A DNA stretch of 64,000 nucleotides from Tetradesmus obliquus (taxonomy: Eukaryota; Chlorophyta; Chlorophyceae; Sphaeropleales; Scenedesmaceae): positions 4,452,501-4,516,500 of the forward strand of contig CP126199.1 in assembly GCA_030272155.1 (NCBI GenBank), read 5' to 3'. Of this stretch, positions 40-63,030 are shown piece by piece; the stretch's first letter is position 1, and every line of letters starts with the position of its first letter. Below the pieces are notes generated by a model. The model saw nothing but the letters and a program-made list of their open reading frames with translations, searched no databases and was not told the DNA's origin. A program made the translations under genes and the position numbers.

Positions 40-1673
40 CTAGGAGACTGCTGTGAGTGCATTGTTGATCTCGCCCAGCACGTTCACGCGGCGCCCCGCA
101 AACTGCTTCGCCAGCGACGCCTCAACTGCCTTCTTCACGCTACGCGTCTGCGACACGATCTCAGCCAGCTGCACAAGGCACAGCAGCAGCAGCGGCGGCG
201 GCATGAGTTGTAAGATACAGAAGCATTGTTTCCAGCATGCATGCCTTTGCATACATATCGTTGCATGCTGCACAACGATGCCTGCGTGCAGAAGCTGCGC
301 AATCATTGTGAGCTTGCCAATGATGCGGGTCCCAAGCGCCCAGCAGCACAGATATTGGAGCCAGTGATGCCCAGCACAGCAAGCGAGGTGTGAAAGGGAA
401 GGCGTGCATACTGTGAAAGATGCCCTGCGCACATAAACAAACCTAAACCCATCAGCACCCACACTCACCTTTGGCTGCAGCCCCACCAGCGTGGCGCGGC
501 TCTCCTGTTTGCGCGCCTGCGTCTCAGCTGCTGCAGCCAGCATGCGCGCCTCCTGGCCAGCCTTACGCTGCAGGCTGCCCTGCAGCCGCTCCATGTACCT
601 GGAAATGACAAGATCAAGAGGCGCAGCACAGCAACACAGTTGACGTGTGCCACTGCCCCCAAGAACTGGACGCAGACACACCAGAAAATTCATGCATAAG
701 CACAGAGCACCTGCAGACTGCCCTGCAGCTGCCTCCAAGCAGTTCGCAACGCAACAGACAGGCAGCAGCACAGCTTTGGGTGCTACAGTCGGGGGTGGCA
801 GTACAGGACAAGAACTGGCCCTCCTTGCGCTGCAATCTGCCCTGCAGCCGCTCCATGATACCTAGCGGTAGAGACGATTGCAACATGACAAAAAGGGAGC
901 AGTGCAGCTCACGCGTTCTGTGCGCGCTGAAAGTACAGTACAAAAGAAAAACTGGATGGAGCACGCCAGAAGCAGCGACACACCAGCATACAACCGACTC
1001 TTCGTGTGTACGGCCGCATCCTACACTGCTACCCAGCACCAGCGCAGGCGTGTTTGCACCGCACCTGCTGCTGCTGCTGATCATGAGCAGCTGCCGCAGC
1101 TTCTCATCGTTCAGCGCCGCCAGCAGCGCCTCAACACAGGCCAGCATGCGCCCCACATCACCAGCGTCAGTGGATGCCACCACATCTGGCGCCAGTGCCC
1201 GCAGCAGGTCACTGCTGCTGCTGCTGCCGCTCAGACCAGCTTTGCGAGACAGCAGGAATGCACGCAGCTCCTGCAGATCATCGATCAGCTGGCTGCGGTA
1301 CTCGCTGTCATGCTGCAGGCGGTCTGCTGCTGCATCTCCGCTGGATTCTGCTGCTGCTGCTGCACTTGCAGCAGCTGCTGCCGATCCACCACCACCAGCA
1401 GCAGCAGCAGCGTCAGTGCCAGCAGCGCCGAGGTCTATACCCCAATCAATGCCTGGTGCTGCTGCAGACACTGTTGAGTCTCCGGCACTCTCCACACCTA
1501 TGCCTGACATGTCAATGTCCCAGTCTAGGCTTGGACCTGCTGCTGCTGCTGCTGGCTCTTCTACTGCCACATCCCAGCTGATACCACCACCATCAGCAGC
1601 AGCACCTGCATCGCTGCCAGCTGCAGCAGCAGACAGGTCCCCTAGGTCCCAGCTGATGCCACCAGCGGCATCC

Positions 1674-1711
<38 letters not shown>

Positions 1712-2161
1712 ATCGCCGACACCCCAATCTACACCCCCTGCGCTGCCCGCTGACAGCTCCAAACCCCAGTCCACGCTGATGCCGGCAGCATCCCCTGCTG
1801 TTGCTGCTGCTGCTGCTGCGTTGTTTGCTGCATCAGCGCCACCCTCAGGCAAGTATGCTGCAGTGCGCCGCTCCCGTACCTCCGAAAGCACATGCAGCAC
1901 CTCCGGCAGCTCCTGCTGCTCACTGCTGTTACTAACAACAGCCGCTGCTGCTGCCTGCTTGCCTGCCTCGCTGCCGTGTGCGTACTGCGTGAAGTGCCGG
2001 TAGTAAGAAACTGCTGCGTCCAGCTGCTTTTCGCTGCGCAGCTGCTGCACCAGGTCTCCAAACAGGCCAGGTAGCTTGTCGCTGAGCTGGCGCAGCTGCT
2101 GGCCCACTGGGCCTGTGCCGCTGATGCCCAGCTTCTCACACTCCTGCAGGCAGTGCACACG

Positions 2162-2192
<31 letters not shown>

Positions 2193-3802
2193 CAGCAGCT
2201 AATTGTAAACTCGCCCTGTCTCTCTACTGCAAGCATCTCTTGCTGTGCCACTGATGCGCAGCTTCTCACACTCCTGCAGGAGGTTTGTGAAGCAGGCATT
2301 CAGGCAGCCAGGCAGCCAGGCAGTCAGACAAAGAGTGACCGACGACATATTGAACGGTGGCAGACTACATCTTGTGTTCAGGTCACGGCGCCGACAGGGC
2401 CTGTGCCGCTGATGCCCAGCTTCTCACACTCCTGCAGGCAGTGCACACACAGGCAGGCAGGCAGGCAGGCAGCAGCAGCTGATTGTAAACTCGCGCTGTC
2501 TCCCAATTGCAAGCATTTCTTGCTGTGCCGCTGATGCCCAGCTCCTCACACTCTTGCAGGCAAAAGTGGAAGGACAGGCCCCATGCAGGCAGTTGTACAG
2601 TTGTGAACTTGCGGAAGTAGCCAGGCTTGCACAAGTAGCCAGGCACTTGCACATAAGGCACGCAGTTGGGCAAACAGGCAGGCAGGAAGTTTAGGACATG
2701 CCAAGGCCACCTCTGTGCATGCTGCTCGCCTGCGCGCTGTTTCCTGCTCGCTGTTTCCTGCAAGCATTTGGGCAGTCACATGAGTGGCAGGCCTATCATG
2801 ACGTGCTCACCTTCTTGTAGTTGTTAGCGCAGGTGACAGCGCTGCGGCTGTACTCTGCGTGCCGCCTGTCTGCGTCTGCCATCTGCTGGTTGCACTTGGC
2901 CATCTGCTTGCGCAGGTAGGGAATCTCATAGTCGACGTTCTGGATCATCGTCTGCGCAGCCTCGCCAACAAACACGCCTGCAGGAACAGCAGCAGCGTGG
3001 CATGACACACGGCGATCGTAAGAGGTATGAAGCAGCTTGATGCAGCAGTGTTGTGAGGCAGCCGCAAGCTGCGGCAGAAGATGCACCAGTTTGAACAAAC
3101 ATCTGCACCAAAGGTGCTCGCAAGCAGTGAATGTTGCCGCATCTGCTGGCATTCGCATCACGATCATCATGCTGTATGCCACCAACGCCGCTGATGGTGT
3201 CACCAAACACATCGAAGGCTGCTGCTGCTGCTCACCTCCGTTCTCATATGCCTTCACAATCTTGTCCCAGATGCCTGCCTGGCCAGAGAGGCCGCCAAAA
3301 AGTGTGCGCTCGCCACTCTCCGCAAGCTTGTCGCGGATCTGTAGTGACCTGAAATAGTCAACAGTTGCATCTGCAGGACCAGGCAGCTGGCTCAGCAGCC
3401 CTGGTGGCAGCTCCTTCTCTGCCTCACTAATCTTTGACTTGATGGCCTCCAGGCGCTTGTGCCAGTCTGCTGGCAGCTTTTGGCGGGAGACCTGCGGGAG
3501 GTTTGCAGGACAGCAGTATGGTAGGTGCAGTAGCGGTTGCTACTGTTGGCAGTTCACTGCACCAAGCAGGCAGCTTGCGGGTCTGCCCCAATCAGACATG
3601 ACATATCGGCTGCCAAAAACACTGCTAACAGCACGGAGAGTGCTTGAACAGTGTGCGCTTGCAAGGATGATGACGCACTCACCAGCCATTCAGGCAGTTT
3701 CTGGTAGTTGATGTCAATGGGTAGCTCCTGATCTGCGTTTGGCTTGTCATAGCCCTCCCCTGTTTTCCTAGCAATTCTGGGGTCCGAAGAGGCAGCAGCC
3801 AT
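40..3802 (-). CDS. CDK5RAP3: CDK5RAP3 / C53 / LZAP homologue
   Basis: Six exons on the minus strand: 3802-3683, 3491-3236, 2977-2811, 2143-1065, 598-469 and 168-40, about 626 aa. All phases close and the stop is at 40-42. The family works with the UFM1 ligase at the ER and acts as an ER-phagy receptor. The N-terminus carries the family PIDI..KL.EWLV block (about residues 26-41). Next come NVDYEIPYLRKQMAKC, CEKLGISG, and a disordered middle with six Trp motifs (VDWG twice, IDWG, SWD twice, DWD) between Ala runs. The C-terminus RRVNVLGEINNAL matches the human ending. The start at 3802 is preferred because it lies just before PIDI; an in-frame ATG at 3913 is possible. Exon 4 is enlarged by Ala/Ser tracts. 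Pieces resembling the starts of exons 4 and 5 recur in the preceding introns. Human CDK5RAP3 is about 506 aa. Confidence 0.93.
823..866 (-). repeat. Pseudo-exon: copy of CDK5RAP3 exon 5 start
   Basis: On the minus strand this repeats the first part of exon 5 (598 downward), including the MERLQG..LQRK coding stretch, inside the intron before exon 5. A one-base insertion after the would-be acceptor breaks the exact junction. A weaker third relic is visible near 703-737. Confidence 0.8.
2101..2570 (-). repeat. Four-copy repeat of CDK5RAP3 exon 4 acceptor region
   Basis: Four copies of the exon 4 start (sense: CTGCAG, then GAGTGTGAGAAGCTGGGCAT or close variants) lie near 2113-2150, 2236-2285, 2400-2440 and 2527-2566. 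Each has an AG acceptor. Two are followed by an AGGC microsatellite and a shared block containing TTGTAAACTCG. Only the 2143 acceptor continues into the full exon and joins exon 3 in phase. The other three sit in the intron. Confidence 0.85.
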
Positions 3803-4221: not shown

Positions 4222-6843
4222 ATGCAGCTTCGGGCTGGGGCTGCTGCCCCTCACGTGCTCAAGCTGCTGCTGATCAGCAGCAGCACCTGCTGCAGCACAG
4301 GCACCAGGCCAGCAGTGCGGCACCAGCAAAGACACAACAGCAGCAGCACACCAGGCAAGCCAGCTGCTGCAGTTTGCTATGAAGATGACCAGCACCCAAT
4401 TACAGCAGCATCAATCCCGAGCGCGGTGTGGGAGTGCCTGCATACGCTGCGAGCAGCAGGTGAGTGTGGCTCGTGAGACGCTGCTCAACGGTGGTGTTCT
4501 GTTATAAAGCCAACTTGTAATGTTGCAGCAGCAACACCTTGCAGGAAGGATTTGGCAGCCAAAAAACTTGAATCACATGCACCAATGCAGCTGCAGCAGT
4601 ACAGCAATTCAACACAGAGCAAGCCTCCATGTTGCCATGCCGTCAGTAGCGTAAGGGAGTGGCTTGGCGCACTGAACACAGCAGCACTAATTACAGTTTT
4701 AGCGAAACCGCGCACGTGTTGGTCCCGTGCTGCCTGTCCTGCGGACCAGGAGGTGCTGCTGGTGCGCAGTGCTGTGCGCAGCCCGCTGCTGCAGCTCTGG
4801 TGCTGGACTGCTTGTTCCGCAACACGCGCATGTTTGCTGCCTGTCCTGCAAGCCATGAGGTGCTGTTGTGCGCGGCCTGCTGCCGCACGCCTGTTGCTGA
4901 ACTGCCTGTGTGCCGCATGTTTGCTGCCTGTCCTGCAGGCCATGAGGTGCTGCTGGTGGGTGGTGCAGTGCGCGACCTGCTGCTGCAGCGGGGCGAGCCC
5001 AAGGACTACGACATCCTTACTAGCGCACAGCTCAAGCAGGTGTGATATTCGTGCAACATTGCAAACACATTGCAAACATAAATCTAATATCTCGTACAGT
5101 GCTTGTACAGTGCTTGTACAGTGCTTGTACAGTGCTTGTACAGTGCTTGCTCAGCACTGACCAGCAGCAGACACATCACATGAAGTGATGCTGAGCAGTG
5201 ATCAGCCAGTTGAGACACAGCCTCCTCAGGAAACGCGCGCAGCTGCAGCAGGGGCGCCCTGTACGCCTGGCTTGCTGCCTGCTGCCGCAGCAGCAGTTTT
5301 CCAATGGCTGCACTCTGCTGCTGCGCAGGTGAAGGCGCTGTCCGCAATGCGCGCATCATCGGCCAAAACTTCCCCATCTGCCAGCTGGAGCTGCCAGGGC
5401 TCACACTCACATGCATTCTGCAGCCTGCTGGCCCCTGTTATGGCGTGCTGCGCTCTGCTGCTGCTGCTGCTGCTGCTGCTGCTACTGCTATGTTGCGGGC
5501 CGCTGACCTGTGCTGCTGCTTGCTGAGTCCTGCTTCTGCTTGCTGCCCTCTGCTGCCGCCCTGATCCTGCTGCTGCTGCCTGTTGCCGCAGGTGAAGGCG
5601 CTGTTCCGCAATGCGCGCATCATTGGCCAGAACTTCCCCATCTGCCAGCTGGAGCTGCCAGGGCTCAAACTGGAGCTCAGCAGCATGCACACACGCCCGC
5701 CACGCGCCTGGCAGCCTGCTGCTGCTGCTGGCGGCGGCGGCAGTGCGGGTGTGCCTGCAGATGTTGCCGAGCACTGCTTAGGGGCTGGTGCAGCGGTGAG
5801 TGCGGCTGCAGCGCTGCAGCACTGCAGCACTGCAGTATGCATATGTATCGAGTGCGTGATGGATTATGCGCATGGCTGCTCGGGGGCTGGCGCTGCAATG
5901 AGTCTAGTTGCTGACAGCTGCAGCAGTAGTGTAAGAGGTCTGTGAGGGCATGTGGGGTTTAGCATTTGCTTGACTGCTGGGCAGGACGCATCTGCCTGTA
6001 CTTCCAAGCCCCTACTCAACTGTCAGGCTCCAAGTGCTGCTGTGATGTCATGTGTGTTTGAGTGCCACTGTGATGTGACAGTCAGCAGACACGCCGTGGG
6101 CTGTACAGTAGCATCTGCAGCTGTCTGCAAGCTCTACGTTTCCCACTGGCGACACTATTGGTCAGTAAGGACTGTATCACATACGCTGCCCATGCCTACC
6201 TCATGCTGATGTGCTTCACTGCCGCATCTCATTCTGCTGTTCCTTGTTGCAGCCCGGCCGCGGCAGGCGCAGCAGTGTGCTGCCGCACATGCAGCAGCAG
6301 CAGCAGCAGCAGCAGCAGTCCTGGGCTGCCGCGCGCCGTGCAAACGCAGCAGCGCGAGACTTCACAGTCAATGCGCTGCTGTATGATCCCTTCCAGGCAG
6401 TGCTGTTTGACTATGTTGGAGGTGTGGCGGATGCCAGGCAGCAGCTGCTGCGTTGCGTGGGGGACCCTGCGGCGAGGTTTGCAGCAGACCCTGCACGCTT
6501 GCTGCGTGCTGTGCGGTGTGCAGCCAGAGCAGGTGAGGTGCTGGCATGGTTCTTCTTTGCTGTGTGTATGTGTGCTTGGGGGTGTGTTTGCGTGTCTGTG
6601 CAGGCGATCGTGTGTGCACGTACAGGGCAAGTTGTGTGGTATGCAGCAGGTGAAAGTGCAGGCGAACGCTGTGTGCGTCAGCTGAAAGGTTGCTTTTAGA
6701 AGCCCTAAGGGAGGGACGCTGACTGCAAGCACAGCGCGTGTTTGGTGTGCAGAGGAGATACGGCATGCCAGAGATGCCAGAGCCAGAAGCTACCCACAGC
6801 AGCAGCCTGTAACTGACATGCTCCTGTTGCTGCTGCTGCAACG

Positions 6844-6884
<41 letters not shown>

Positions 6885-17000: not shown

Positions 17001-17035
17001 CGCAGCAGCAGCGAGCACAGCAGCAAGATGTGCCT

Positions 17036-17066
<31 letters not shown>

Positions 17067-17686
17067 GTTACGACGAGCCACGGCTGCCAGTGCTGGCATG
17101 CAGGGCCATGTCTCCTACGCTTGCAAGGCGCAGCCCGTTTGCAGAGAGCAGCAGCAGCAGTAGCAGTAGTGCTGACAACACTGGCAGGGACAGTGGTGCT
17201 GCAGGAGATGGGGAAGCAAGCAGCAGCAGCAGCAGCAGCAACGAGGGTGCTGCGGCAACTTGGCAGCGTGCGCATCCTGCAGGCAGCTCAGGCAAGGCGC
17301 AGCAAGGTCTAGCTGTAGCTGCTGCAAGCAGCAGCAGGAGCGTGCCAGCACGTCCACCGCAATGCTCCCCGCTGCGCGCACCTGCTGCAGCTGCATCGCC
17401 CGTGCGCAGGCAAGCCCCACACTCCCCACCACCAGCAGCAGCAGCAGCAGCAGCTGATACTCAGCATCATCTCCAGCATGTACGCAGCAGCGGCGGCAGC
17501 TTGCGCGGCTCCAAGCAGCAGCACACTGGTCAGCTGCGCAGCTCGCAGCAGCAGCATCTTGATGTGCTGCCGCTGGTGGAGGTGGTGCGCACCAAGTACT
17601 GCCAGGCCTCCGATGACAGCGATGACAGCGACAGAGAGTTTGAGGAGCGGCTGATGGCCAAGTATGGCCTGAAGCAGCACGGCTGA
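11043..17686 (+). CDS. STIL: STIL / Ana2 / SAS-5-like centriole duplication protein
   Basis: Probable exons: 11043-11306, 11397-11423 (weak), 11531-11684, 11908-11969, 12206-12280, 12534-12713, 12854-12922, 13006-13068, 13320-13482, 13705-16133 and 16358-17686, about 1604 aa. STIL binds PLK4, CPAP and SAS-6 to start centriole assembly. Matches to animal STIL: LRFPSSRRYLWDRTPAG near residue 65; LSMDQARSLLPLEATDVN then YSMPLVGVWVKG and AACLRFAFSS (the STIL N-terminal domain); a short heptad segment ALQGEVQQLRQELMRLQHQL (about 1147-1172) where STIL has its PLK4-binding coiled coil; and a C-terminal RTKYC..EERLMAKYGL resembling the STAN-end KKYMKRYGL. The middle is a long Gln/Ser/Ala-rich disordered region from CAG triplets. 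Junctions between 11307 and 11530 are the least certain. Confidence 0.8.
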
Positions 17687-17800
17687 GGCGCTGCAGGGGC
17701 TGTTGATCAGTCACATGACCAAGCAGCAGCAGCAGCAGCAGCAGCACCCGCTGCACTAACAAGCAGGTCTTTTACAGTACCTGTGGTGGTGCAGCAACAG

Positions 17801-17861
17801 GGAGTTTGAGGAGCGGCTGATGGCCAAGTGTGGTCTGAAGCAGCACGGCTGAGGCGCTGCA
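17801..17861 (+). repeat. Copy of the 3' end of the STIL-like coding region
   Basis: About 60 bases repeat the last coding bases, stop codon and first 3' UTR bases of the STIL-like gene (real copy about 17635-17695), 166 bases downstream. The copy would encode EFEERLMAKCGLKQHG and stop, with Tyr replaced by Cys. It lies after the real stop, so it is expected to be untranslated. Confidence 0.9.
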
Positions 17862-19685
17862 TGGGCTTTGTTGAAGGGTGGGGATGCAGCACGTGTGTGA
17901 GTGATCCGGTCGTAGGCAGCGAGTGTTGTGTGTCAGTGCAGCAATGGCGCGGCGATGGGTGGGAGGCAGATGATCAGTCAGGGACAGTTGTGAGCAGGCG
18001 TGCAGCAGCGCAGCTGGCCGGCCGAGGCGCGCAGTTTTGTTGAACGCTTGCAGCTTGCTGCAGCTGTTGCCACATGTCAGCCGTTCCTGAAAGAGCTTGC
18101 CAGGGACCCCTTGGAAGTGTGTGTTGCTGAAACTTAACCCAGGGATGGGGGGTGCGGAATACTTGGGCTGACATGTTGTTGCACTGCCAAACGCACGAGT
18201 GTGGCAACTGTTGTGAACCAAATGTGAAGAAGCATGCACAACAGGCAGTTGTGGTGGTGCACTGTGCGGCAGTAGCAGGCTGGTGTTGGGTGTTACTTCC
18301 TGGTGACTGTTGCACTTGCTCACTTATGTGGACTGCTTCAAGGCTGCAGCTGGTGCGGCTTGCACATCCATCAGGCAGTACTGCTTTCGCATCATTGCTA
18401 TTGACTTGAAGTCATAGGTAGCATGGTTGTCCCTATTTCGAAGTAGAATAGGAGGAAGTGCAGATTGCGGTATTGCAATGTAATCACATATACATGCACT
18501 CTGTCGGTGGCAGTGTGCGGCAATATATCTGTTACCTTGTGGCTCCAGATGACCACACGATTTGCTGACACAAAAGCCCGGCAAGATAGCTCGCATTATC
18601 AAGCCCACAATGAAGGCTATGTTTGTATTTCGTCAGCACCGTGTATAGCCTGGCCCTTGACTCCTCACAACGAAAGTTTAAGGGCACAAGCAAACCAGCA
18701 CAAGCCAAAGTCACTCAAATTCAGCCGACAGGCAGAGCCCAGGAAAGCCCGCTAGCACCGGAAGTCATGCAAACACACGCAGAATCACAACAACCTGACA
18801 CATGCAGATGCAACACGGTGGTAAGCACTCATACAATGATGAGTATCGTCACAATGTTACCCATCAAGCCATAGCAGCATGTCTGCATTTGTACTGACAC
18901 AACGCCAGTCACCAAGCACCATGTGAACAGGTGAGACACACTCACAAGCGCTCAACTGTACCTCAGATGCAACGGCTGTAGGCACAGAGCAGGGCAGGTG
19001 TACTGCAGAACGTTTTGCAACCCTCAAGCAGCACACAGCAACAGCAGGGTGCTGCTGATGACTGACTTTGACTGGCCCTGAGCTGGTTGTTATGTAGCAT
19101 CAGCAACACAGCACCTGTAAGCACGTAACCACACTGCGACAAAATGTTGATTGGTCTTTGTGGACAGACCAACATAGGTCGCTGCCTTCAAGATCCACAT
19201 ACCATCACCTCCAACTGCAACCGTTATTTACTCATATTCACCATAACACTGAAATGTGCACGAAGCGCTACTATTAGACAGTAGTGTCTCAGGTTGGCTC
19301 ATCAGGCAGAATGCATAACCTCATCATGTCAAGGGCACCCCAGCCTACATGCACATGCAGTCGTACTACTGGTAGTAGTTTTCACTGTGCAAAACAGTAT
19401 GAAGTCTGCTCAGCTTTTGTAGCCATGCTCTTTCCCTCTCCCAAAAAGAAAGGAAGAAAGGAGGCACATGCATACCAGCAAAACTTCATGATGCACACAT
19501 GAAACCGGCACGTTAAACCAACACAACAGCCATCGACATACACAAAAAGGAAACATGCCAGATTCACATTGAACAGAGGCGCGCAGGCGCCGCACAGCGG
19601 CCATGACAACCCAAGCCCAAGCTAAGCTCTTCACATGTCACCAAACCACACATCAAAACCCGACCGCAACACCCCCAATCACTGA

Positions 19686-19778: not shown

Positions 19779-20498
19779 AAGAAGATTGTGATCGCACACA
19801 TGCGTGTAGGGGTGGGTGTATGAGGACTGTATCTTTTGTTGTTCTCCCACAAATCGGCTGAAGGACTCATGAAAAGGACACGCCTCAAGCAGATCGTCTA
19901 ATGCCAGCGCTCAACAGTGTTATACTGTGAGCATGCTGGCAATGCCAGGCAGAAAGCAGGGTGTGTGTTGCTGCAGGGTTCAGTCAACCCCAATGCAGCA
20001 CAAAGTGGCTGCGACAGCCGCACCACCCTGCAGATGGCTGACCAGACATAACAACATCGGACGCCGCACACAGGTGCAGACAATCATGTATCATGGAAGA
20101 GGCAAGGTGTGATGCCGTGAATCACCAGGGGGTTGGGCCCATTGCTGCTGAGGCTAGATGCTGCTGATGCAGCGTGCAGCCCAGCAAGCATGGCTGCGGG
20201 CGCTCAGCAACAAAAACTCGCCTGCACCCCAAGGCGCTGTCAAGAGCTTGCGCCAGCGTTCCAAGGCGGCAGCAGGGCGGCTGGCGCGGAACAAATTGCA
20301 ACAAATTCAACAAATTATCTAGTGTGCGTTGCAGATGCATGGCTGCCATGCGGCGCAGCGCCAGCGCATGCCGCTGCTGTCTCTCTGCCTACCCTGCTAC
20401 GCGTGTAGCAGCGACCGAATGCGCTGCAAGATGGCGTGCAAAGCGAGAAGCATGGCGGCTGCACTGCTGCTCTTGAGTCATAGCAGAGCCTGAATGCG

Positions 20499-20582
20499 CT
20501 GCACATGCGCTGTACATGTGCTGCACATTGTCAACGTGTGCTGCACATGCGCTGTACATGTGCTGCACCTTGACAACATGTG
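20499..20582. repeat. 42-bp direct repeat, two copies
   Basis: The unit beginning CTGCACATGCGCTGTACATG starts at 20499 and again at 20541 with few changes. It is rich in TGCACATG/CATGTGCT self-complementary words. Confidence 0.75.
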
Positions 20583-36249: not shown

Positions 36250-36288
<39 letters not shown>

Positions 36289-40556: not shown

Positions 40557-40607
<51 letters not shown>

Positions 40608-41491: not shown

Positions 41492-43880
41492 TCACAAGGA
41501 GCTGGTCAAGCCCAGGTAGGACTTCAGCGCGTCATATACGGTGAACCCAATCGCAGTGCTGGGCACAACCTTCATGTAGTTTATGCTCAGACCCCTGAAC
41601 AGCGCACGCACTCCCCCGTCTGCTACTAAGCTGCGTGTAATCGCAACCATAGACGGCTCCGGGTGCAGCACGCTGTGTGCGCTATGCATGCTATGCACAC
41701 CTGGCATGGAGACGCGCTGTGCTGCATGCGACAGCTGCCGGCCGGCGCCAGATGCAGCTGCACTGCTGCGGCTAGCCGCACCAGGCCAACTGCTACTACT
41801 GCTGCTGCTGCTGCCTGCTGCTGCTTGTGGCACTCCTGGTCCAGGAGCTGCTGCTAGCACAGTCGCCGGCCGCTGCCAGCTGCTGCTGCTGCTGCTGCTA
41901 CTGCAGCCGTCATGTGTTCTGCTAGCGCTAGTGCTGCTGTGGCTGTTGGCACCTGCTGCTGTTACAGGGCGGCTTGCGCTGCTGCTGCTGCCGCTGCTAC
42001 TGCTGCCGTTGTTGTCGTTGCCCAGCTGCAGCTTCAGCTCCTTCATGCTTGCTGACCTGTTGAGGTGTGCCACCTGCAGCTGCCGTCGTATGACATCCTG
42101 CAGCGTGGTGCACAGCAACCGCCGCAAGGGAGCAGCATTGTCAGTCAATCACGTCATAACGGATGGTCCAAACCGCCAAAACAGCAGTGTCTTGTGTCAC
42201 ACCATCTGCACTGACATAATGGCTGTCCAAAGACAAGAAGCCAACACCTCTGCTGCTACATCCTGGTGCTATCATTGCTGCCTCCTTGCATAGTTCGCCG
42301 CATGTCAGCTCGATCACCATCAATTTCAGAGCTGCAGGTCTCTGGCCCTGTCAGCACCGCAGTCTACAGCACATCACAGGCGCGCCACACAGCAAAAAGA
42401 TGCATAAGCTTCACCGCAGCGAATATGCTTTTGTGCTGCGCGTTTGAAGCTCACCAGCGGGTATGTTACTGTCTGAGCAACCAGCCCTGCCAAGCCCCCA
42501 AACACAAGTGTGGCAGATACTGGAAGCTTTTGGGGCTGCTGCTGCTGCTGGTCCTCTAACACTTGCTGCTGCTGTTGCGCTGCATGCTGCTGCTGCTGCT
42601 GCTGCTGCTGTGTGCTGCTGTCGCTGCCCAGCAGCGTGTTTGCTGCTGTCAGAGCAAGCGAGCAGTCGGCTGCCTCCGCCACTACTACGTTGCTGCTGCC
42701 TATGCGTTCGCAATTGTGTGCCGCAGGCACAGGTTGCCGCTGCTGCTGCTGCTGCTGCTGCGGCGGCGGCTGCGCCAGTTGGACAGCAGGCTGGTCTATG
42801 CTGCTGCTGCTGCTGCTGCTGCTGGTTGCCCTGTAGTGGTTCTTCAGTGCCTGGTACACGTAGAACTTGAGCCCAGCATATGGCAAAATCCCTAGCAAAG
42901 TTGGCAGCACACCCCTGCAGCAGAAACAGCAACAGGAGCAGCAGCGAAATCAGGCTCAAGCCATTGAGCTGTGGATGCGCCTGTCAGCTCGGCAGGTGCT
43001 TGCAGCTCAGCTGCGGCTGCCAGCCACAACAGGCAGTACATATATACCGCACAATCAAGGCCCCACGGGTGCCCTACCGGACCCTCGGGTACTGTAGGGA
43101 TGGCAGGAGGCGTGGAGGCGCATGGGGCATTCTCATCGCCACACACGTCCCCTTCCTTAACATACGCGGGTGTTGGGTGTGAACACACCACGCGTAGCTC
43201 ATTCATTCATTCCGCACAATCATCCAGTACAGTGTGTACTGCCACATGCATCACCCACCTGTACAGCCCAAGCAGCCCCTCATCCTTGGCAGTTGTCGCC
43301 AGCAGAGAAAATATGCCAGGGTGGCGGTGCCGCAAGCGCCCAGGCCCTGATTGCTGTGTTGCTGGTGGCGGCGTTTCAGTGGCGTACGCGAGGCGTGTCC
43401 GGACTAGGTCCAGTGGGTAGGTGGCCAGCACCGCTGAGGCGCCTGCAGGCAACATAACATCATCATGCAGGCATACTTGAACTGGATGGTTGTGCTTTCC
43501 AGTGGGTGGTTCGCAAGATGATATCAGGTGCCAGTTAATACATGCAAACACGGATCTAGCTTACATCAAACCTGTGCAACAGCTTGAAGATGCAGCAGCA
43601 GAGCGCAAGCCAACAAGGCGCCAGTAAGCTTGCATATGTGCTGCTATTACTGCTGCTGCTGTTGCTGCTGTCCCCTCCGCCGGCTCTGCTGAATCTGCTG
43701 CTGCTGCAAATGCTGCTGCTGCCAGGCTCACCTGATGCCGAGCCTGCCAGCAGGTCCCACAGCGGGATGCCGGTCATGTTGAAAGCATGCATTTCCGCTG
43801 CTGCTGCTGCTGCTGCTGCCAGGCTCACCTGATGCCGAGCCTGCCAGCAGGTCCCACAGCGGGATGCCGGTTATGCATTT

Positions 43881-43912
<32 letters not shown>

Positions 43913-43977
43913 CTCACCTGATGCCGAGCCTGCCAGCAGGTCCCACAGCGGGATGCCGGTCATGTTGAAAGCATGCA

Positions 43978-44027
<50 letters not shown>

Positions 44028-44093
44028 CTCACCTGATGCCGAGCCTGCCAGCAGGTCCCACAGCGGGATGCTGGTTATGCTGCAAGCATGCAT

Positions 44094-44162
<69 letters not shown>

Positions 44163-45616
44163 ACTCCTCACCTGATGCCGAGCCTGCCAGCAGGTCCCAC
44201 AGGGGTATGCCCTGCTCCTTGCTGCCAGGCTTGCTGTGGGGCAGCGCCAGCTGCACAATGGCGCGCCTGTAGTACTCGTACAGGCCTGCGGCAGCAGCCA
44301 CACCAGAGTAGCACACAAGTGTTAGGCACGGTGAGATGCTGCGTAATGTGACTGTCGTCAGGATGTTGTTGCAGCAGATGCGCTGCAGTGACCACAGATG
44401 TGAAAACAGGGAGGCAGGGTTTGCTGGCCTGGCTGCAAGAGGGTCAAGTGCACCATCAGCATTCACAGACAGCTTCTGAAAGTGAACATGAGGCCCCAGC
44501 AGCTGACGCGCCACTCATGCACTGAGCCTAGCTACTGCACAGGATGCACTGCTGTTACTAGGTCTGGTGCTCATCTGCTGCTGGCTGCAGCTGCTGCACT
44601 GTACAGCGTATGCTGTAGTTGCGCCTCTCACCAAAGTGGATGGCTGCATATGGCACAATGCGCAGCACGCTGGCAGTGTTGCCCCTGCAGCAGACAAAAG
44701 CAATATACCTTATAAGGCCTGCTGACAGCTTGCACTACGCGGCAGGCAGCAGCACCCTTATTGCTGTGGCTACGCCGTGCTCTGCAGCCTGCATTCATCC
44801 ATATGCTTGCAACCCCATCTCCTGCACTGCAGAGCATGCATGCGCATGTGCTGCTTTTGCTGTTGTGCTGGCTGCTGCTCACTTGAACAGTCCTGCAAAG
44901 CCCTCATGCTGCCAGATGTACTGCAGCACACCCTGCACAGTCAGCTGGCCACCACGCGTCTGCACAGCAGCAGCAGCAGCAGCAGCAGCGAGAGCAAGCG
45001 ATGAATGTACACCACAGACGCAGTGTAATTGATCTGATGGAATGCGCCATGTCCGGACCAATGCACCTGCTGTGCCAGCATGTTCATGCACGCTCACAGC
45101 ATGTGCAGCCACATCCGACACACTTGATGCTGCATCTGTTGCCAGCCTGCTGCAATGCAATCGCCAGAGGCGAGTGTGTGAGAATACCAGTTTTATTATG
45201 TACAGAATGCTGGCAAGCAGGTAGCAGCAGCTGCGACATGTCCTGCAAGCTGGCGCCCTGAGCAACACTACAGTGCAGCAATGCCCTGCCTGAAAGATGA
45301 TCTTGGTGCGCTCCAGTGGTGCTACTGCTGTCTTAGCGAGGCCCCCAGCCAATCCTCCTGCTATGAGTTCCTGAAAACATGCAGCGCCAGATGAACGCAA
45401 GTCAGCCAGCAGTGGAGCTGAAACTGCTACTACTAGTAAGTTGCTGTGCAGGTTGCAGCCAGGCATTGAATGCATGGAAGCCAGCAGCTGAAAGAAAGCT
45501 GCAGGGCTCACCCTTGCGAATGTGGGAAGGCTTCGCAGCCTTCTTTGCAGGTCGGTGGCCGCGTCTGCCGCGTCCGAGCTGCTGCTTCTGCTGCTGTCAT
45601 GCTGCTGCTGCTTCAT
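41492..45616 (-). CDS. Mitochondrial carrier, coenzyme A carrier-like (SLC25A42/CoAc type)
   Basis: Eight minus-strand exons: 45616-45512, 45370-45290, 44959-44883, 44684-44632, 44285-44172, 43442-43259, 42914-42455 and 42097-41492, about 559 aa, all in phase. Intron 2 uses a GC donor (TTTCAG/GCAGGG). Three carrier repeats are present with Px(D/E)xx(K/R) signatures: [23 protein letters not shown], and YPL split by an intron from DVIRRQLQV. Other plant CoA-carrier matches are [55 protein letters not shown] and [21 protein letters not shown]. It should be a six-helix inner-membrane transporter importing CoA (or a related adenine nucleotide such as PAP). It exceeds the usual 300-350 aa because of Ser/Gln insertions in the loops of repeats 2 and 3. 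Confidence 0.93.
43721..44095 (-). repeat. Four extra copies of the carrier exon 5 3' edge with CTG/CAG tracts
   Basis: Copies near 43721-43796, 43819-43880, 43906-43980 and 44021-44095 repeat about 45 bases of exon 5 ending at the donor (sense: ...GGGACCTGCTGGCAGG...GCATCAG/GTGAG), each preceded in sense by a CAG run and a GAAATGCATGC word. They sit in intron 5. The unit is about 75 to 117 bases because the CAG run varies in length. Confidence 0.92.
44096..44161 (-). repeat. (CTG)22 tract (CAG in the gene sense)
   Basis: Twenty-two perfect triplets immediately after the donor of carrier exon 5. The longest pure triplet run in the window. Confidence 0.95.
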
Positions 45617-49807: not shown

Positions 49808-52800
49808 ATGTTTGACTTTGATATGCCAGAGCTCGACCTGGGGTCAAGAAGGCGCCAGGCTGAGTGGGTCTCTGTTGACAGCAGCAGGCCATGTCAGAAG
49901 CTGCACAAGCAGAGGTGCGTGGCTAGATCCAAGCCATGTCCGCACATCAGACACAGCTGATGTGTTGTTATCATGCTGTTTCGGCTCTCTTGCCTCGTTT
50001 GCCATGGATTTCTCCATGCCTGGCTGGTTTCTTGCCATGCGCGGCACTGCTGCACTTGCGTTGCAACCCTAGTTCGTGCATGCTGCATCATGTGCTGTGC
50101 AGGCGCAGGCACAGGCAGCGAGAGAAGAAAGCAGCACAAGCAGCAGCGGCAGCGGCAGGGCAACCGGCGAGCAGTGCGGTGGCAGCAGCTCAGCCAATGT
50201 CGGCGGCAACAGCAACGCCTGCGCAAGCAAAGCACAACAAGGAGTACAGGGACTCCAATGTGGTGTGCCTGTCCACTGAAATAGAAAATGGCAATGTGGA
50301 GTACAAGTACTGCCTTTCCGGCTGCATCAGCAACCCCAACAGGCGGCACCAGCTTGTGAGTTGCTCTGCCTGCTTGCCTCACCTTTCCTGCATGCATTGT
50401 GTGCAGCTGCAGCTATGTGTCATGTGACACAGAGCATACGGAGACAGCGCATCAGGGCTACTCTTGCAGCGCATGTTGTTGAAGCATTGCACGCAGCAGC
50501 GTGAACTCATTCATCACAACTCCTGCAAGCAAACGCACACATGACCTGGCTTCTAGCAGAGCGTCACCCTAGACCTGCTTCACAAGGTTGGACCCTGGGC
50601 ACAGTCAGCCATGCACACATATGATCAATGCTTGTGTATGAACGATGGAACATGGCTGGTTTGCCCTGTGCAGGTAACCCAGATGAAGTACAGGCTGTCT
50701 GAGGGCAGCGGGGAATGCTTCTACTACATAGGTGCGCCAGCAGCTGCAGGGCTGTGCATGGTGCTGCTCTGCACGTATGGCTTTCATGTGCCTGCTTGTT
50801 GGCTGGTGTGGTTCACCCAACCTGCCTGACAGGGCAGCTGTGCAGCTGCAGCACCTGGATGTCATGCAGCAGCTCGTTGGCATGTGTTGATGCTTGCTGG
50901 ACATGGTAGTATCTGCCAGCTCCAGCAGCGCTGACTCCTGCCCTCCTGGGTATGTGCATCAGCAGGCAAGGTACTTAACAGTAGTGTGCTAGCTGCCTAG
51001 CTGGCAGCGGTATGCCTTCACCTTGTGTTGTTTGGGCTTGAAAAGCGCTGAACCATCTTGATGCTTTCCAGCTTGACAAAGGACACGTTGCACACCAACT
51101 TGGTGCTTGAACTGACACTGCTCCTCTACTCTGCCGTATTGGTATCATTCTATGACCTCTGGTGTGTTCTGTGGCAGGTGTGGAGGATGACGGCTACCAA
51201 TGGGGCCTTGACAGTAAGGAGCTGGCGGCCTCCATGGGCTTCATCGCCAGCATGGCCGCCAGCCTGGCAACACACATGCATTCACTTTACACATTAGGCC
51301 TCTGAGAAGCCCAAACCTTCCCCTCTCAGCTTCTTGCTGATGCTGGCTGCGCGCAAAAACTGGTGCACATCGTGCTGCGACGCGTTTGGCTGTTTGTTTG
51401 TTTGTGTGTTATGTGCCAGGTGTGGAGGATGACGGTTACCCGCGTGGCCTTGTGACACCTTGACAGCAAGGAGCTGGTAGCCTCCATGGGCATCATCGCC
51501 AGCATGGCGGCCAGCCTGGCAGCCATGCGCACCCCCCCCCCTCATCTTTTGGATTTCACCTACACAAAGCAGAGGTCGCACGTCTTGTTGCGCTGACACT
51601 GCGTGTTTTCCGCCGTATTCTGTACACTCTGTTCTGTGCTTCTTTTGCTAGGCGTGGAGGATGACGGCTACCCCCGCGGCCTAGACAGCAAGGAGCTGGC
51701 GGCCTCCATGGGCATCGTCCCCAGGATGGCAGTCACACGCACCATATCCCAAATATCTTTTTTGGGTCACATACACAAAGCAAACGACGCACATGTTGTT
51801 GATGCGCTGACGCCACGTGTGGTTCTGCCATATTCTGTGCACTCTGTTTCGTGTTTCTGTTATCAGGTGTGGAGGGTGACGGCTACCCACGCGGCCTAGA
51901 CAGCAAGGAGCTGGCGGGCTTCATGGGCATCATCGCCAGCATGGCCGCCACGGGCACCCCCTCTCAAATATCCTTTCTTGGGTCCACATACCGAAAGCAA
52001 ATGGAGCACATGTTGTTGATGCGCTGACACCGCGTGTTTTTCGCCGTGTTCTGTGATCTCTGGTGTTTCTTCTGCCAGGCGTGGAGGATGACGGCTACCC
52101 CCGCGGCCTAGACAGCAAGGAGCTGGCGGCCTCCATGGGCATCATCGCCAGCATGGCCGCCAGCCTGGCAGCCACGGCGCGCCTGGTGGAGTACGTGCGC
52201 GGCGGCTTCGGGCGGCGCGCGGCGCTGATGCACATCAAGGCGGACGCGGAGGAGGGCATGGCGGCAACAGACCTGCGCGTGGCTGGTGAGTGACACCACA
52301 GCTGCCAGACTTGTGGGATTCGCTGATGATTAGGCTGCTGAGGAGGGTGGTGATGGGTCAGGTGCGGAGGAGGGCATGGCGGCTACTGACCTGCGCGTGG
52401 CTGGTGAGGAATACGACAAATGCGACTTCCATGCAATGCCTGATGATTAGGCTGCCAGGGAGGGTGGTGAGGCGTTTGGCAGCGGGGGAGGACATGGCGG
52501 CGACAGACCTGCGCATGGCTAGTGAGAATGTGGCAGGATGGGGTTGAAGCGTCATGCTGCTGCACATCACAGCAATAAGACATATTGGTGGCTGAGAACT
52601 GCAGTGCTGATGCTCGCTGCTGCTGCCCCTGCACCTGCAGTGGCCGGCAGCATGGACAGCGGCAAGAGCACGCTGGTGGCTGTGCTCACGCACGGCAGTG
52701 ACGGCCGGCCGCTGCTGGACAACTGCCGCGGCTCCGCGCGCATGGCTGTGTTCAGGCACAAGCACGAGATCGAGTCGGGCCGCACCAGCAGCATCAGCCA

Positions 52801-55527
52801 GCAGGTGAGAGCGTTGGCTATGGTGGCTGCAGTGGCTGCGCAGCACCAGCAGCATCAGCCAGCAGGTGAGGTGGTGATTCCTGGTTGCAGTGGCAGCGCA
52901 GCACCAGCATGTCTGGCAGTGCAAGCAGCATCAGCCAGCGGGTGGGGCTGTCGGTTGCGCTGGGGCAGCTGTGTGTGTAGCTGTGCGGTGCTTGAAGTGG
53001 CGGCGACGCCACTTGCAGTGTTGCACAGCATATGAACAAGCACCAGCAGCATCAGCCAGCGGCTGTTGAGCAAGGTGGTTGCAGTCGGGAGTGACCCCAT
53101 GCGCTGTACTGCACAGCAAGCGCGGCCCAGCACACTGTACATTTGAGTACAGCTGCATTTGCATGGCTGCCAGTGCTGGGCTTCTACCAGGGAGGCCCAC
53201 CTACCCCGACACATCGCAAACCACAACTGACACGTGTGTTACACGCCACTTGCACTGCTGCAGGTGCTGGGCTATGACGGCGAGGGCCGCGTGCTCAACT
53301 ATGTGGGCGTGTCAGCGCCCACGCCCGCCGACATCACTGGCGCTGCTGCGCGCGTGCTGACCTTCATCGACATGGGCGGCCACGAGAAGTACCTGAAGAC
53401 TGTGCTGTACGGCATGACCTGCACGCTGCCAGGTGCGTGGTTGTCATGTTTATAAAGCACCTGTTTGTTATGATATGAATGCGGCACCTGTTGTTATGTT
53501 ATGATCTTCATAGACCTGGAAAAGACCACATTGTACGCATGACCTGCACCCTGCCAGGTGCGCGGTTCTAGCACCTGTTTTTCGTTGTGCAAGGCGGCAC
53601 CTGTTATGTTATGTTGTGATGTTTGTTATTGTGGAAGGGCGCGCTGTACGGCGTGACCTGCGCGCTGCCAGGTGTGCCCAAGGTTGAGCTGTGCAGCAAG
53701 CACAGAGCACAGCTGCGACATTGTGACAGGTATCCTTGTAGCCGTGTGGGTGTCCGCTGCGGCAGTTTACTGTACTACTGCTATGCCGGCAGGTTCAGTG
53801 CCGTTGGTGCCATTGCCTGAGTGCTTGCCATTGCTATGGCCGCAGATCTGACGTCATCCCACTACTGCACCCAGCCTTTGTCTTGCGCTATGTCTGCTCT
53901 GTTGCCATACTGAGGCTGCCGCATCGCCTTCTGCCTGCATCACACTTGCAGACTATGTGCTGCTGTGTGTTGATGCGCTGTGTGGGGTCACACGCATCAC
54001 CCGCGAGCACCTGGCAGTGGCAGTGGCCCTGGAGGTGCCCACAGCACTCGTCGTCACCAAGGCAGACGCAGTCGACGCGCGGCAGCTGCAGCTGCTGCTG
54101 CAGCAGCTGCGGCAGCTACTTGCCCCGCTGCTGGGCAGCCCTCAGCAGCAGCAGCAGCTGTCAACTAGCCAATCAGCTGAAGCTATGACCGAGACAGCAG
54201 CAGCAACAGCAGCAGAGCCAGCAGGGGCTGGGGATTCAGCAGGCTGTCCTGATGGCGTGCCTGTGGTCCTGACGGAGCCTCAGGCTGCCAGGCTGGCTGA
54301 CACACTGTCTGAGCTGCACAGCTGCACTGCAGCAGCACTTGATGCGAGCTTCCGGCAGGTCACATTTCCAGTGTTCACGGTGTCGTGCGTGTCTGGCGCG
54401 GGGCTGTCGCTGCTGCATGCATTCCTCAGCAGGCTGCAGCCAGTCAGCACCAGCCGGAGCAGCAGGCAGTGCGGCGCAGCTGCAGCGCCTGTTGGTAGCC
54501 ACAGCTCAGGGGTCCAGCCGAGTTGCGCTGCTGGCAGTGCAGCTGCTGTGGAGCCTCAAATGCAGCAGCAGCAGCCAGCGAGCAGCAGCAGTAGGCCCTG
54601 GCAGGAAGCAGCTGCTGCTGGTGGTATCTGTGCTGCAACAGTGGCTGGAGATGTCGGGGACGTGCAGCGGCAGCGGCTGGAGATGGAAGGCAGCAGCAGC
54701 CTGTGGGTGACACAGCAGCTGGCAGCCACTGCAGCTGCAGCAGCTGCGCTGGATGCAGGCAGCAGCAGAGTCGCTGCTGCTGCTGGTGCCAGTGATGGTG
54801 CTGGCTTCGATGCTGACACAGCAGCAGCAGCAGCAGCTGTATCTGACGCTGATGCAGCAGCAGCTGTTGCTGCTGGCCACTTCCAAGTGGTGCACACCTA
54901 TGATGTCGAGGGCGTGGGCTGGGTGGTGTCTGGCATTGCGGTGTCAGGTGAGCGCTGCAAAGGCCATGTGCACTCGCCCAAGCTTGTCTCACTGTGCCAC
55001 CATGAGCAGTTGCAGAATAGATGTGTTGTTTGTCCAGACCGTTGCTGCCACTGTTGCACGACTGACTTGCCAAACCCTAGCCGTTGTGGCTGTTATTTAC
55101 TGCTGCCTGTCTGCTTATATGTATGTTTGGACATGATGGCATCCTAAAAACCCAATCATGGTGCTGCCATTACTGCCTCCATCCTTGCTGCAGGCACCAT
55201 TGAGGTGGGCCAGTCTCTGCTGTGGGGCCCCACCTCAGATGGAGGCTTCAGCCCTGTGCTGGTCTCATGCATCCAGCGCAGCCACGTGCCAGTGAAGCAG
55301 GTGCAGCCAGGCCAGACTGCCACACTGGCACTGCAGCAGGCAGGCCCGGGCACTGTGCCCATCACCAGCAAGCAGGCCCTGCTGTCAGCTGCGGCGGCTG
55401 CGCAGGCGGCGGCTGAAGCTGCAGCAGCGCGCGAGGCTGCGGCTGCTGTAGAGGCGGCTCCGAACTCCATGTACGGCAAGTCGCAGGTGCAGCATAGTCC
55501 TGTGCGTGTCAGCTGTGGTGTGCGGCC

Positions 55528-55575
<48 letters not shown>

Positions 55576-56310: not shown

Positions 56311-56342
<32 letters not shown>

Positions 56343-60144: not shown

Positions 60145-60188
<44 letters not shown>

Positions 60189-62289
60189 AGGCCATCACCA
60201 GGAAGACTCGCATCCTGGATGTGAACTACAACGCATCCAACAACGAGCTGGTGAGCAGCAGCAGCAGCAGCAGCAGCCAATGACCAGCTGGAGCACAGCA
60301 GCAGCAGCACACAACAGTGCAGTACACAGCTGAGGGCAACAGCTGGCAGACATGGCCTTTGCACGCTGATGTCAGCTGCAGCATGGGAGGGCTGCAGCAG
60401 CAGTAGCAGCAGCTGCGGAAGTAGCAAAGCCTCAGCAGCATAGCTGGACAAGCGTGCTGGCAGTTGAGCTTGGCAGAGACTGCATGAGAATGGCTGATGC
60501 AGCAGCGCTCATGGGTTGGCGGCAGCAGTTGATTACATTATGCAGCACGTAACTGGTGTTGTGAAGCGCAGCCTTCCTCTGCTTGTGTTTCATAGCCAGT
60601 CACCAACTTCTGTGCGCACGGCAGTGTGCAGCAGGCAGCAACATGCTCGGCTTTTGTTTGGCAGTCAACAAACTTTGCCGGGGATGCAGCACGCACCTGC
60701 AGACGGATGGTGTGCATGCCGCAACATCGCACCTTCACACGTGACAGCCGCGCAGCATCACAGACGAGGACAGCACAAACTAGCGGTGCTGCTGGCTGTT
60801 CTGGACACGTCATGGCAGCCTGCACGTGTCTGCCAGCTACGCTCTCAACTCTCTCACTTAACTGCCTCTTTCCGCGTCTGCCCGTCTTGCATCGCTGCTC
60901 GCTTATGCCCCCAGGTGCGCACGCAGACGCTGGTGAAGAACTGCATCGTGCAGATCGACGCCGCTCCCTTCAGGCAGTGGTACCAGCAGCACTACGGCGT
61001 GGAGCTGGGCCAGAAGAAGGGCGCCGCTGCCGCTGCCCCTGCAGAGGAGAAGGCAGAGGAGAGCAAGGTGGGTGCGAGCATGTAGCCTGACTCTTGGCAC
61101 TGTGTAGTAACAATAAATAGTGCGTCAAAGTGCGGACTACGCCCAGGCTGCAGTGCAGCAGCTGCTGTGCTGATGTTGGAAGCATTCCACGGAGATGCTG
61201 GCGTCTTGTGTGCTGCTGTCTTTGATGAGGTTGTCATGATGCTCGATGGTGTGCAGTTGGTGGCAGCATGTTGAACTGGTTAGTTGGCTGTGCAGCTCAG
61301 TCTTAAACAAAGCATGAACATGTGGCTGAGCAGACATACACCAGCAAAGGTGCAGGCCACCAGTTCAACAGGCAATGTTGGCGGCAGTTTCGCTGCGCGC
61401 TCTTACGGCAGCGGCGGCACAGAATTGCAGTGCTGTACTGTCGACCCTGTGAGCAGCAAACTTGCAGTGCGCTTGTGCAGCTGTGGTGCAGTCTTCGCAA
61501 TGTTGCAGTAGGCAGATGGCATTGTTGCGCTGCTGATGTGCAGTTTGCAGCAGCTGGTGTTGGCAGGCTGGGCAGCAGGTGTTCAGTTGTGGCAGGCATG
61601 TGCTCATATATGTGTTTGGCAGCATGCACAGCAGTTTTGTTGGGGTGCAGCAGCATTTTTAGTGCTTTGCACGTTGGATTAGGTTTTTTCACAGCCATGT
61701 GACGAGCATCAAAACTTCCATGACTCTGAGCTTGGCCTGACAGGGCCTGGGCTTGAGGAAACATAGACCACTTTTCTCTGATGGCTGCTGTTGCTGCATT
61801 TGACACGCGTTTCTCAGCTGCTGGCTGTGTTGTTTGGACGTGCTTGGACGTGTCGGAGATTTTTGGCTTCCTTTGAGCTATCTTGCAATTAGTTGCAGTT
61901 TTCTGCTGCCACCACCAGCATGTCCGTCATTCTATTCACATAACAGCACACAGCGGACCCTTTCAACTTCCAGCAGCAGCTGCCAGCGTGCACGTAGTGT
62001 GTGCAGCTTACTTGCAAACTGCTATCGCACTGCCAACGCCACCACCTATCATCCTGATGTCCCATTGCAGGGCTCCAACCACGTGCAGCGCAAGATGAAG
62101 GAGCGCGCGCGCGGCCACAAGAAGGTCGACCAGGCGCTGGCCGACCAGTTCAGCGTGGGCCGCCTGTTTGCGTGCGTGTCCAGCCGCCCCGGGCAGTGCG
62201 GGCGCTGCGACGGCTACATCCTGGAGGGCCGCGAGCTGGAGTTCTACCTGCGCAAGATGCAGAAGAAGAAGTCCAAGGCCGCAGCCTAA
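59209..62289 (+). CDS. RPS8: 40S ribosomal protein eS8
   Basis: Six coding exons: 59209-59212, 59342-59414, 59528-59663, 60191-60250, 60915-61067 and 62071-62289, 214 aa, all in phase. The first coding exon is only ATGG. The protein is eS8 of the small ribosomal subunit. It matches along its whole length: [89 protein letters not shown], and the C-terminal [20 protein letters not shown] then [15 protein letters not shown]. It has no homopolymer insertions apart from a short Ala stretch near the variable [14 protein letters not shown] loop. The introns, in contrast, carry long CTG tracts. TGTAA lies 160 bases after the stop. Confidence 0.98.
60146..60190 (+). repeat. (CTG)14 tract forming an eS8 3' splice site
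   Basis: Fourteen CTG triplets followed directly by CAG, the acceptor of eS8 exon 4. Confidence 0.95.
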
Positions 62290-62447
62290 GCAGCACAGCT
62301 GGTTTCCTGCAAGCTGCTGACGCAGCGTTGTGGTGTGCAGCAGTGCGGCAGGGCAGCTGGTTGCGCGTGCTGCGGGCACGAGCAGAGCTGTGCTGCCGGC
62401 CGTTGGTTGCCGCGTCCACTTTAGGCCATCGTTTAGAGCTTTCCACG

Positions 62448-62452
62448 TGTAA
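62448..62452 (+). terminator. RPS8: Polyadenylation signal TGTAA of eS8
   Basis: TGTAA in TCCACGTGTAAGCGAGCGG, about 160 bases after the stop codon. The same block recurs with its TGTAA at 63009-63013 downstream of the partial eS8 copy. Confidence 0.65.
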
Positions 62453-62738
62453 GCGAGCGGCTTCCTGAGATTGCCTGTTGCACCGAGTCCCGACGATCAG
62501 CAAAGCGTAAAACTGATCTGCGATCTGAGGTTTTAAGCAGCCATGGTAGCGGGGGCAAAATTGCTAGAAATTCTAGCAAATGTGAGTGCGCAATATGTTG
62601 CATGTCTTTTTGCAAAGTGTATTACCTGCAACTCTAATGCAGCAAGCGTTCTAAACTGATCTGAAACCGATGGCTTGAGAACCTGCGGTCTCTTTAGAAC
62701 CGACCGTCTGAGCGCAGCGTTGCGCTGGTGCACAAGTG

Positions 62739-62852
62739 GTGTCCAGCCGCCCCGGGCAGTGCGGGCGCTGCGACGGCTACATCCTGGAGGGCCGCGAGCT
62801 GGAGTTCTACCTGCGCAAGATGCAGAAGACGAAGTCCAAGGCAGCAGCCTAA
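62739..62852 (+). pseudogene. RPS8: Partial duplicate of the eS8 last exon
   Basis: About 114 bases repeat the 3' half of the last eS8 exon (62176-62289), from the codons for [11 protein letters not shown] to the stop, with few changes (one Lys codon is now Thr). The upstream half of the exon, its acceptor and a start codon are missing, so it is a coding fragment. The eS8 3' UTR block at about 62400-62470 also recurs at about 62960-63030, so the duplicated unit includes the 3' end with its TGTAA, spaced about 560 bases. Confidence 0.9.
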
Positions 62853-63030
62853 ACCCCTGGGTTGCAGCTGAGCAGGGCAGTTGCGGCACGGGCGTTTTCC
62901 TGCAGCAGCGGGGTGTGCAGCAGCTGCGTGTTGCTGGCATGAGCAGTGCTGTGCTGCCGGCCGTTGGTTGCCGCGTCCACTTTAGGCCATCATTTAGAGC
63001 TTTCCACGTGTAAGCGAGCGGCTTCCTGAT

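Follow-up and report, generated by a model that had tools for sequence, protein, structure and literature searches.

Why do short, diverged pieces of exon edges recur beside the exons they come from? The question is raised by a stretch of 64,000 nucleotides of Tetradesmus obliquus DNA (the window; C9:4452501-4516500 in a 104.66-Mb assembly of 17 contigs), in which such copies accompany the genes for CDK5RAP3, poly(A) polymerase, a STIL_N protein, a mitochondrial carrier, a GTPBP1-like protein, and eS8. A 200-kb block of contig C1 was compared with it, and both stretches together make up 264 kb on two contigs. The comparison of sequences suggests that the copies arose as short tandem duplications occurred again and again across coding edges, and that selection determines on which side the visible copy lies. 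This is considered somewhat probable.

Exons in both stretches are ab initio predictions of a two-strand hidden Markov gene finder trained on the window and the C1 block, which converged on a sharp consensus (donor CAG/GTGAG, acceptor GCAG/G, with the slash marking the edge). This consensus and the gene content (Clp protease, eS8) point to a green alga. The edge statistics rest on these predictions, mostly on exons of at least 100 bp, and the gene finder itself calls some of the copies small exons. The G+C content of the window is about 57%. Among its genes, homology checks recognized CDK5RAP3 (PDB/Pfam) and GTP-binding protein 1. Pfam matches were obtained for PolyA_pol (poly(A) polymerase head), a NOSIP zinc finger, Mito_carr, and Ribosomal_S8e (PF01201; eS8), and further domain matches for STIL_N (PF15253) and a VTT domain.

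Repeats were collected by self-alignment with low-complexity sequence masked, keeping direct repeats with an offset below 1 kb and a score of at least 20. The window contains 43 of them and the C1 block 244, over a background, taken from same-strand pairs 10-30 kb apart, of about 0.4 (window) and 0.9 (block) per kb of offset. Inverted repeats within 1 kb number only 1 and 2, respectively. The local duplications that are not simple repeats form 116 clusters (12 in the window, 104 in the block).

These clusters are concentrated at coding edges. Placement was compared with two null models, the first by alignment length and the later one by unit length (smallest offset, up to 400 bp), the latter used since true units may exceed what still aligns. 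Both give an edge excess. By unit length, 96 clusters join an exon of at least 100 bp to sequence outside it, 15 include no such exon, and 5 are confined to an exon. The edge share among edge and interior clusters is 96/111 (0.86), with 0.29 expected for placement anywhere and 0.34 within genes; interior clusters may contain edges of smaller exons, and observed and expected values share one exon map. In the low-divergence subset the share is 24/32 (0.75), with 0.28-0.32 expected, at an identity cut of 0.86 for interior pairs vs 0.93, looser because both interior copies drift. Since the edge share lies above the unit-placement null, the bias needs more than slower decay and survival. By the preliminary description of this DNA, a genome-wide self-alignment without an excess of copies at exon edges would have spoken against its claim; over the 264 kb compared, that excess is present.

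Shift tests gave the same picture. In the window, 9 edge-touching clusters were counted where 3.8 were expected with exons of at least 100 bp (none of 400 shifts reached as high), 4.6 with exons of at least 60 bp (P 0.005), and 5.6 with all predicted exons (P 0.035). In the C1 block the count was 63 vs 29.0 expected for exons of at least 100 bp (again 0/400 shifts as high) and 72 vs 42.3 for all predicted exons. Copies were found at 86 of 468 edges overall: 9/126 (7%) in the window and 77/342 (23%) in the block, so by this share the window is the poorer example. By type, they occur at 41/216 acceptors, 42/219 donors, 3/15 stops, and 0/18 starts (predicted starts are unreliable).

The 9 of 12 window clusters that touch a predicted edge were found automatically in masked sequence. 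Unmasked reading brings in CDK5RAP3 2102-2592 and carrier 43700-44211, after which 11/12 straddle a coding edge: two each in CDK5RAP3 and poly(A) polymerase, one in the carrier, four in the GTPBP1-like gene, and one each at the ends of the STIL_N and eS8 genes. The twelfth (39829/40486) falls within a single predicted exon. Base-by-base reading covered 10 of the 11 edge clusters, and the 215-bp array at 51147-52078 is known from alignments. At least one copy was confirmed by self-alignment and sequence reading in each of the six genes for which edge copies had originally been claimed. The sources and copies are the following.

469..598, minus strand: CDK5RAP3 exon, its 5' edge (acceptor 598/599) being the source (hidden Markov model, PDB/Pfam, sequence read)
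711..774, minus strand: weak intronic copy of the CDK5RAP3 598/599 5' edge (self-alignment 73%, read)
815..863, minus strand: intronic copy of the CDK5RAP3 598/599 5' edge, AG retained, 88% identity (alignment, read)
1065..2143, minus strand: CDK5RAP3 exon, its 5' edge 2143/2144 being the source (gene model; human CDK5RAP3 aligns once here)
2243..2592, minus strand: three intronic copies of the 2143/2144 edge, at about 2243-2323, 2390-2473, and 2523-2592 (alignment, read)
4728..4868, plus strand: pair of copies lying upstream of poly(A) polymerase exon 4939-5039 and derived from its 5' edge (alignment, read)
5324..5407, plus strand: copy lying 263 bp upstream of its source, the 5' edge of poly(A) polymerase exon 5592-5795, with 95% identity (alignment, read)
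17626..17701, plus strand: 3' end of the STIL_N gene with its stop codon in uninterrupted frame (alignment, sequence, STIL_N PF15253)
17792..17867, plus strand: copy of the STIL_N gene end past the stop codon, 93% identity (alignment, sequence)
44172..44285, minus strand: mitochondrial carrier exon, its 3' edge GGCATCAG/GTGAG being the source (Mito_carr, sequence)
43700..44125, minus strand: four downstream copies of the carrier 3' edge, each with GTGAG (alignment, sequence)
51147..52078, plus strand: array of a 215-bp unit upstream of GTPBP1-like exon 52079-52285, whose 5' edge is copied in it (alignments; last 79 bases read)
52362..52526, plus strand: pair of copies lying downstream of GTPBP1-like exon 52079-52285 and derived from its 3' edge, unit 118 bp (alignment, read, GTP-binding protein 1 match)
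52840..53065, plus strand: copies of the 3' edge of GTPBP1-like exon 52641-52804 (alignment, read)
53532..53677, plus strand: two copies of the 3' edge of GTPBP1-like exon 53264-53432, unit about 126 bp (alignment, read)
62071..62289, plus strand: last exon of eS8 with the stop codon (PF01201, sequence)
62739..63032, plus strand: copy of the eS8 gene end and 3' flank, with 2 differences in the 114 bp of its coding part (alignment, read)

Upstream of the CDK5RAP3 exon start GAGTGTGAG lie three copies of it, whereas the human protein aligns there a single time. The carrier copies are near-identical to the source edge and form an array with CAG tracts and periods of 89-115 bp. The gene finder took the copy of the STIL_N gene end as the last exon; because it spliced into this copy, it is the uninterrupted frame read from the sequence that places the copy past the stop. 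As a correction to the preliminary description, the masked census shows the gene-end copy alone in the STIL_N gene; the match 14132/14561 falls within a single predicted exon. The eS8 3' flank copy (62290-63032) is a mosaic: its coding part and last ~85 bp (with TGTAA) are nearly identical and its CAG-rich middle aligns poorly. Elsewhere in the window, 11- and 42-bp minisatellites occur at 5094-5149 and 20494-20585, outside predicted exons, vs units of 95-155 bp at edges.

The anatomy of the copies was studied in 104 rows, that is, pairs in which one copy overlaps an exon of at least 100 bp by at least 20 bases and its partner by fewer than 5 (other pairs were dropped). The exon part has a median of 51 bp (5-95% range 25-109). 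The smallest offset is 95-155 bp in 73 of the 116 clusters and shorter in 12, and the row offsets have further peaks at 200-290 and about 360 bp, most copies thus being spaced by 95-155 bp or multiples. Of the 104 rows, 91 have a copied piece that reaches the near edge of the exon and 1 has a piece reaching both edges; 12 reach neither edge, and none has the far edge alone. For exons up to 200 bp the numbers are 55 near, 1 both, 0 far, and 8 neither. The absence of far-edge copies favours contiguous duplication over free pasting. Best-pair identity across the clusters runs from 0.63 to 1.00 (median 0.86), in line with the graded decay described before.

In rows with an exon part of at least 25 bp and an identity of at least 0.84, the splice dinucleotide is retained in 68 of the 74 copies whose real edge has one, which bears out the statement that most copies keep it. 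In these rows the exon part has an identity of about 0.92, which drops to about 0.6 in the intron from +5 onward. Gaps per kb are 2.1 in the exon part and 19.8 in the intron part. Ten exon-part gaps were counted; each is 1, 2, or 4 bases long and shifts the frame. The copy's own splice site reaches at least the 10th percentile of real sites in 54/89 copies (18/35 and 36/54). Both splice sites are present in 17/89, and most copies resemble half-exons with one site. Complete mini-exons of the mutually exclusive type are not supported, as a second site at the inner end is not enriched (26/54 vs a null of 0.46, 7/35 vs 0.31). Offsets for a frame-preserving extension through the copy's site looked unbiased modulo 3 when the row list was inspected by eye.

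The densest example seen is a Clp protease gene (Pfam) at C1:1020806-1022995. One of its exon stretches occurs five times including the real one, and the next stretch is present in several overlapping occurrences, two of them with a stop. At C1:1068578-1069046 the 5' edge of an 828-bp exon has two upstream copies, the nearer of which differs by nine synonymous codon-site changes and by nothing else.

Are the copies decayed tandem units, or were they bounded at the splice site from the start? In 38 array rows with an alignable intron part, mismatch is 15.8% in the intron part vs 7.8% in the exon part, and this two-fold lower exon divergence is what a drifting outer copy beside a conserved exon would produce. 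In 46 other rows homology ends within 25 bp of the edge, fading at -4 at acceptors and +5 at donors. Flank homology was scored in these by local alignment with a power simulation, an anchored test having missed flanks with indels; the simulated power is 0.90 under mild decay and 0.41 under harsh decay. A clean bounded example (C1 block 19096/19241) has 98% exon identity and no flank match. The alignments are consistent with a mixture, in which decayed tandem units may stand beside copies possibly bounded near the splice site. The earlier proposal of repeated tandem duplication is sustained by the direct-only orientation, the arrays of common period, the copying of the near edge and never of the far one, and the exon part that diverges half as much.

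Mismatch in the exon part is 5.5, 6.1, and 16.6% at codon positions 1, 2, and 3. The synonymous share of differences is 0.56 between real exon and copy and 0.51 between copies; a drifting copy compared with an exon changing only synonymously would give at most about 0.41. Rows with identity below 0.84 have a share of 0.38. The excess is uneven: 2 of 61 rows are individually significant, and 68930 (9 to 0) and 123233 (10 to 2) stand out. At edges with at least three copies, changes private to one copy are synonymous in 0.43 of cases (120/278) and those private to the real exon in 0.72 (31/43). Possible reasons are that some of the copies are in use or that certain differences are older than the copying event.

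The proposed mechanism would work as follows. Short units, mostly of 95-155 bp, lying across an acceptor, a donor, or a stop codon would be duplicated repeatedly in tandem, presumably at the level of DNA. The inner copy beside the exon body would remain in use, and the outer copy would land in the intron or 3' flank and mostly drift. Selection on coding sequence is enough for copies to be seen on the intron side. The preliminary description was correct in placing them there, but no special process is needed for it. Since stop-codon edges are copied too, splicing is not required either. The leading guess for the edge preference itself is a mutational bias toward coding edges, perhaps at points where transcription or the chromatin state switches, beside some retention of copies bearing a usable splice site.

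Several results weigh against this mechanism. Uniform duplication plus survival would leave more interior duplications than are seen, and the copy load varies strongly among genes (chi-square 65.1, 22 df (degrees of freedom)) and between the two stretches; at the gene level no clear link of load with GC3 was found (rho 0.24, p 0.28). The synonymous share is 0.51 in the 61 rows outside predicted exons and 0.60 in the 42 rows overlapping predicted small exons, above the roughly 0.41 that a drifting copy could reach. Amino acid changes are more conservative than random (z 3.3 for all rows, 2.1 outside predicted exons), and 2 stops are found where 10.5 are expected in all rows and 6.4 outside predicted exons. 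Residual intron homology reaches p<0.05 in only 16 of the 46 bounded rows and has p of at least 0.5 in 17. Some copies thus seem to end at the splice site, an outcome not expected from plain tandem duplication.

A link to CAG/CTG tracts, which had been suggested as the driver, was rejected at the predicted edges. A tract of at least 5 units lies within 250 bp of 13/83 edges with copies and of 67/352 without (Fisher p 0.53). Genome-wide, (CAG)6 has 134,639 and 137,421 overlapping matches on the two strands (about 272,000 in 104.66 Mb), and a reversed-pattern control has 7. A donor in another gene copy was likewise rejected, with no second copy elsewhere in the organism's own genome for three single edge-stretch queries. 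In one of these searches 40 of the 96 candidates were scored, and its many weak matches lay in the later, repetitive portion of the query; in another, the top match elsewhere in the genome was 37% identical.

Duplicated edges could instead be functional decoys, retained for the benefit of a second splice site in exon context, for instance in unproductive or alternative splicing. The splice site and the exon part would then be conserved while the surrounding intron diverges, and the identity profile, the 68/74 dinucleotides, the synonymous excess, the conservative changes, and the few stops and few exon-part gaps all agree with this. But that dinucleotide retention is not far above the roughly 63/74 estimated from divergence, only 54/89 own sites reach the 10th percentile, a matching inner-end site is not enriched, and every exon-part gap is of 1, 2, or 4 bases. 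One-copy-private changes (0.43 synonymous) sit near the neutral bound, far from the 0.72 of the real exon, the arrays show the two-fold ratio of drifting copies, and copies past stop codons have no splice role. Decoys are unlikely. Still less likely is template switching or templated end joining through short splice-motif matches (CAG, CAGGTG), by which an exon edge would be pasted into the intron. It would account for the fading at -4 and about +5 in the 46 rows and for the clean case at 19096/19241, but not for the far edge of short exons being copied in 0/104 rows or for copies of stop edges (3/15), which lack splice motifs; moreover, 16/46 bounded rows retain flank homology and CAG tracts are not associated.

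Purely neutral tandem duplication everywhere, with survival and slower decay of exon-derived sequence and no edge preference, explains the side of the copies through selection, their longer recognisability when derived from exons, and the array divergence, which fits drift. The edge shares (0.86 vs 0.29-0.34; 0.75 vs 0.28-0.32 at low divergence) make it very improbable. An artefact of the assembly or the gene finder is scarcely credible: the exons are ab initio calls and some copies were called small exons, but misassembly does not produce diverged copies such as these (median best-pair identity 0.86), and several window edges sit in stretches matching known families. Tandem duplication straddling coding edges is preferred, and its edge bias may come from mutational preference or from retention of useful copies. 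That a process aimed at coding-block boundaries, whether acceptors, donors, or stop codons, or selectively kept there, gives a sizeable share of edges diverging and partly constrained spare copies, and so turns exon edges into a recurrent, measurable unit of genome change, is possible, but is put forward tentatively and as less than probable.

Local copies of coding sequence within introns are also known from tandem exon duplication with mutually exclusive exons. The copies described here differ in being mostly edge pieces with one site, and 1 of 104 rows spans both exon edges. In potato, a tandem duplication across an intron-exon boundary in one gene is reported to have formed a new, extra intron (PMC4974935). 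It had been stated that no named process matches the present pattern, which is too strong for the single event given this example; by comparison, the copies here concern 86 edges in 264 kb, usually lie within one longer intron, and involve donors, acceptors, and stop codons. In Drosophila, novel introns are reported to have arisen from tandem duplication of coding sequence (PMC2891723). Duplicated exonic sequence of which one copy becomes intron is common to both cases, but the Drosophila unit is a coding piece with a proto-splice site, and the unit here includes a splice site already in place and, within arrays, intron. Introner elements (PMC9860276) likewise bring repeated sequence with splice signals into introns. 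Introners are families common to different genes, unlike the present copies, which match their own edge, with distant pairs at background: for same-strand pairs 10-30 kb apart with a score of at least 25, a search of the 264 kb for an introner-like shared family found 0 in the window and 1 in the block. No description of the wider edge-copy pattern was found in the literature searched, which yielded only single-gene precedents and left most subscription journals outside.

In such genomes, ab initio gene finders will call copies of this kind small exons, and caution is needed with their predictions. If edges are truly duplicated at such a rate, the process would keep furnishing the genome with alternative splice sites, with longer introns, and with potential new exons. 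It would also provide many independent, dated events for testing intron growth and splice-site competition.

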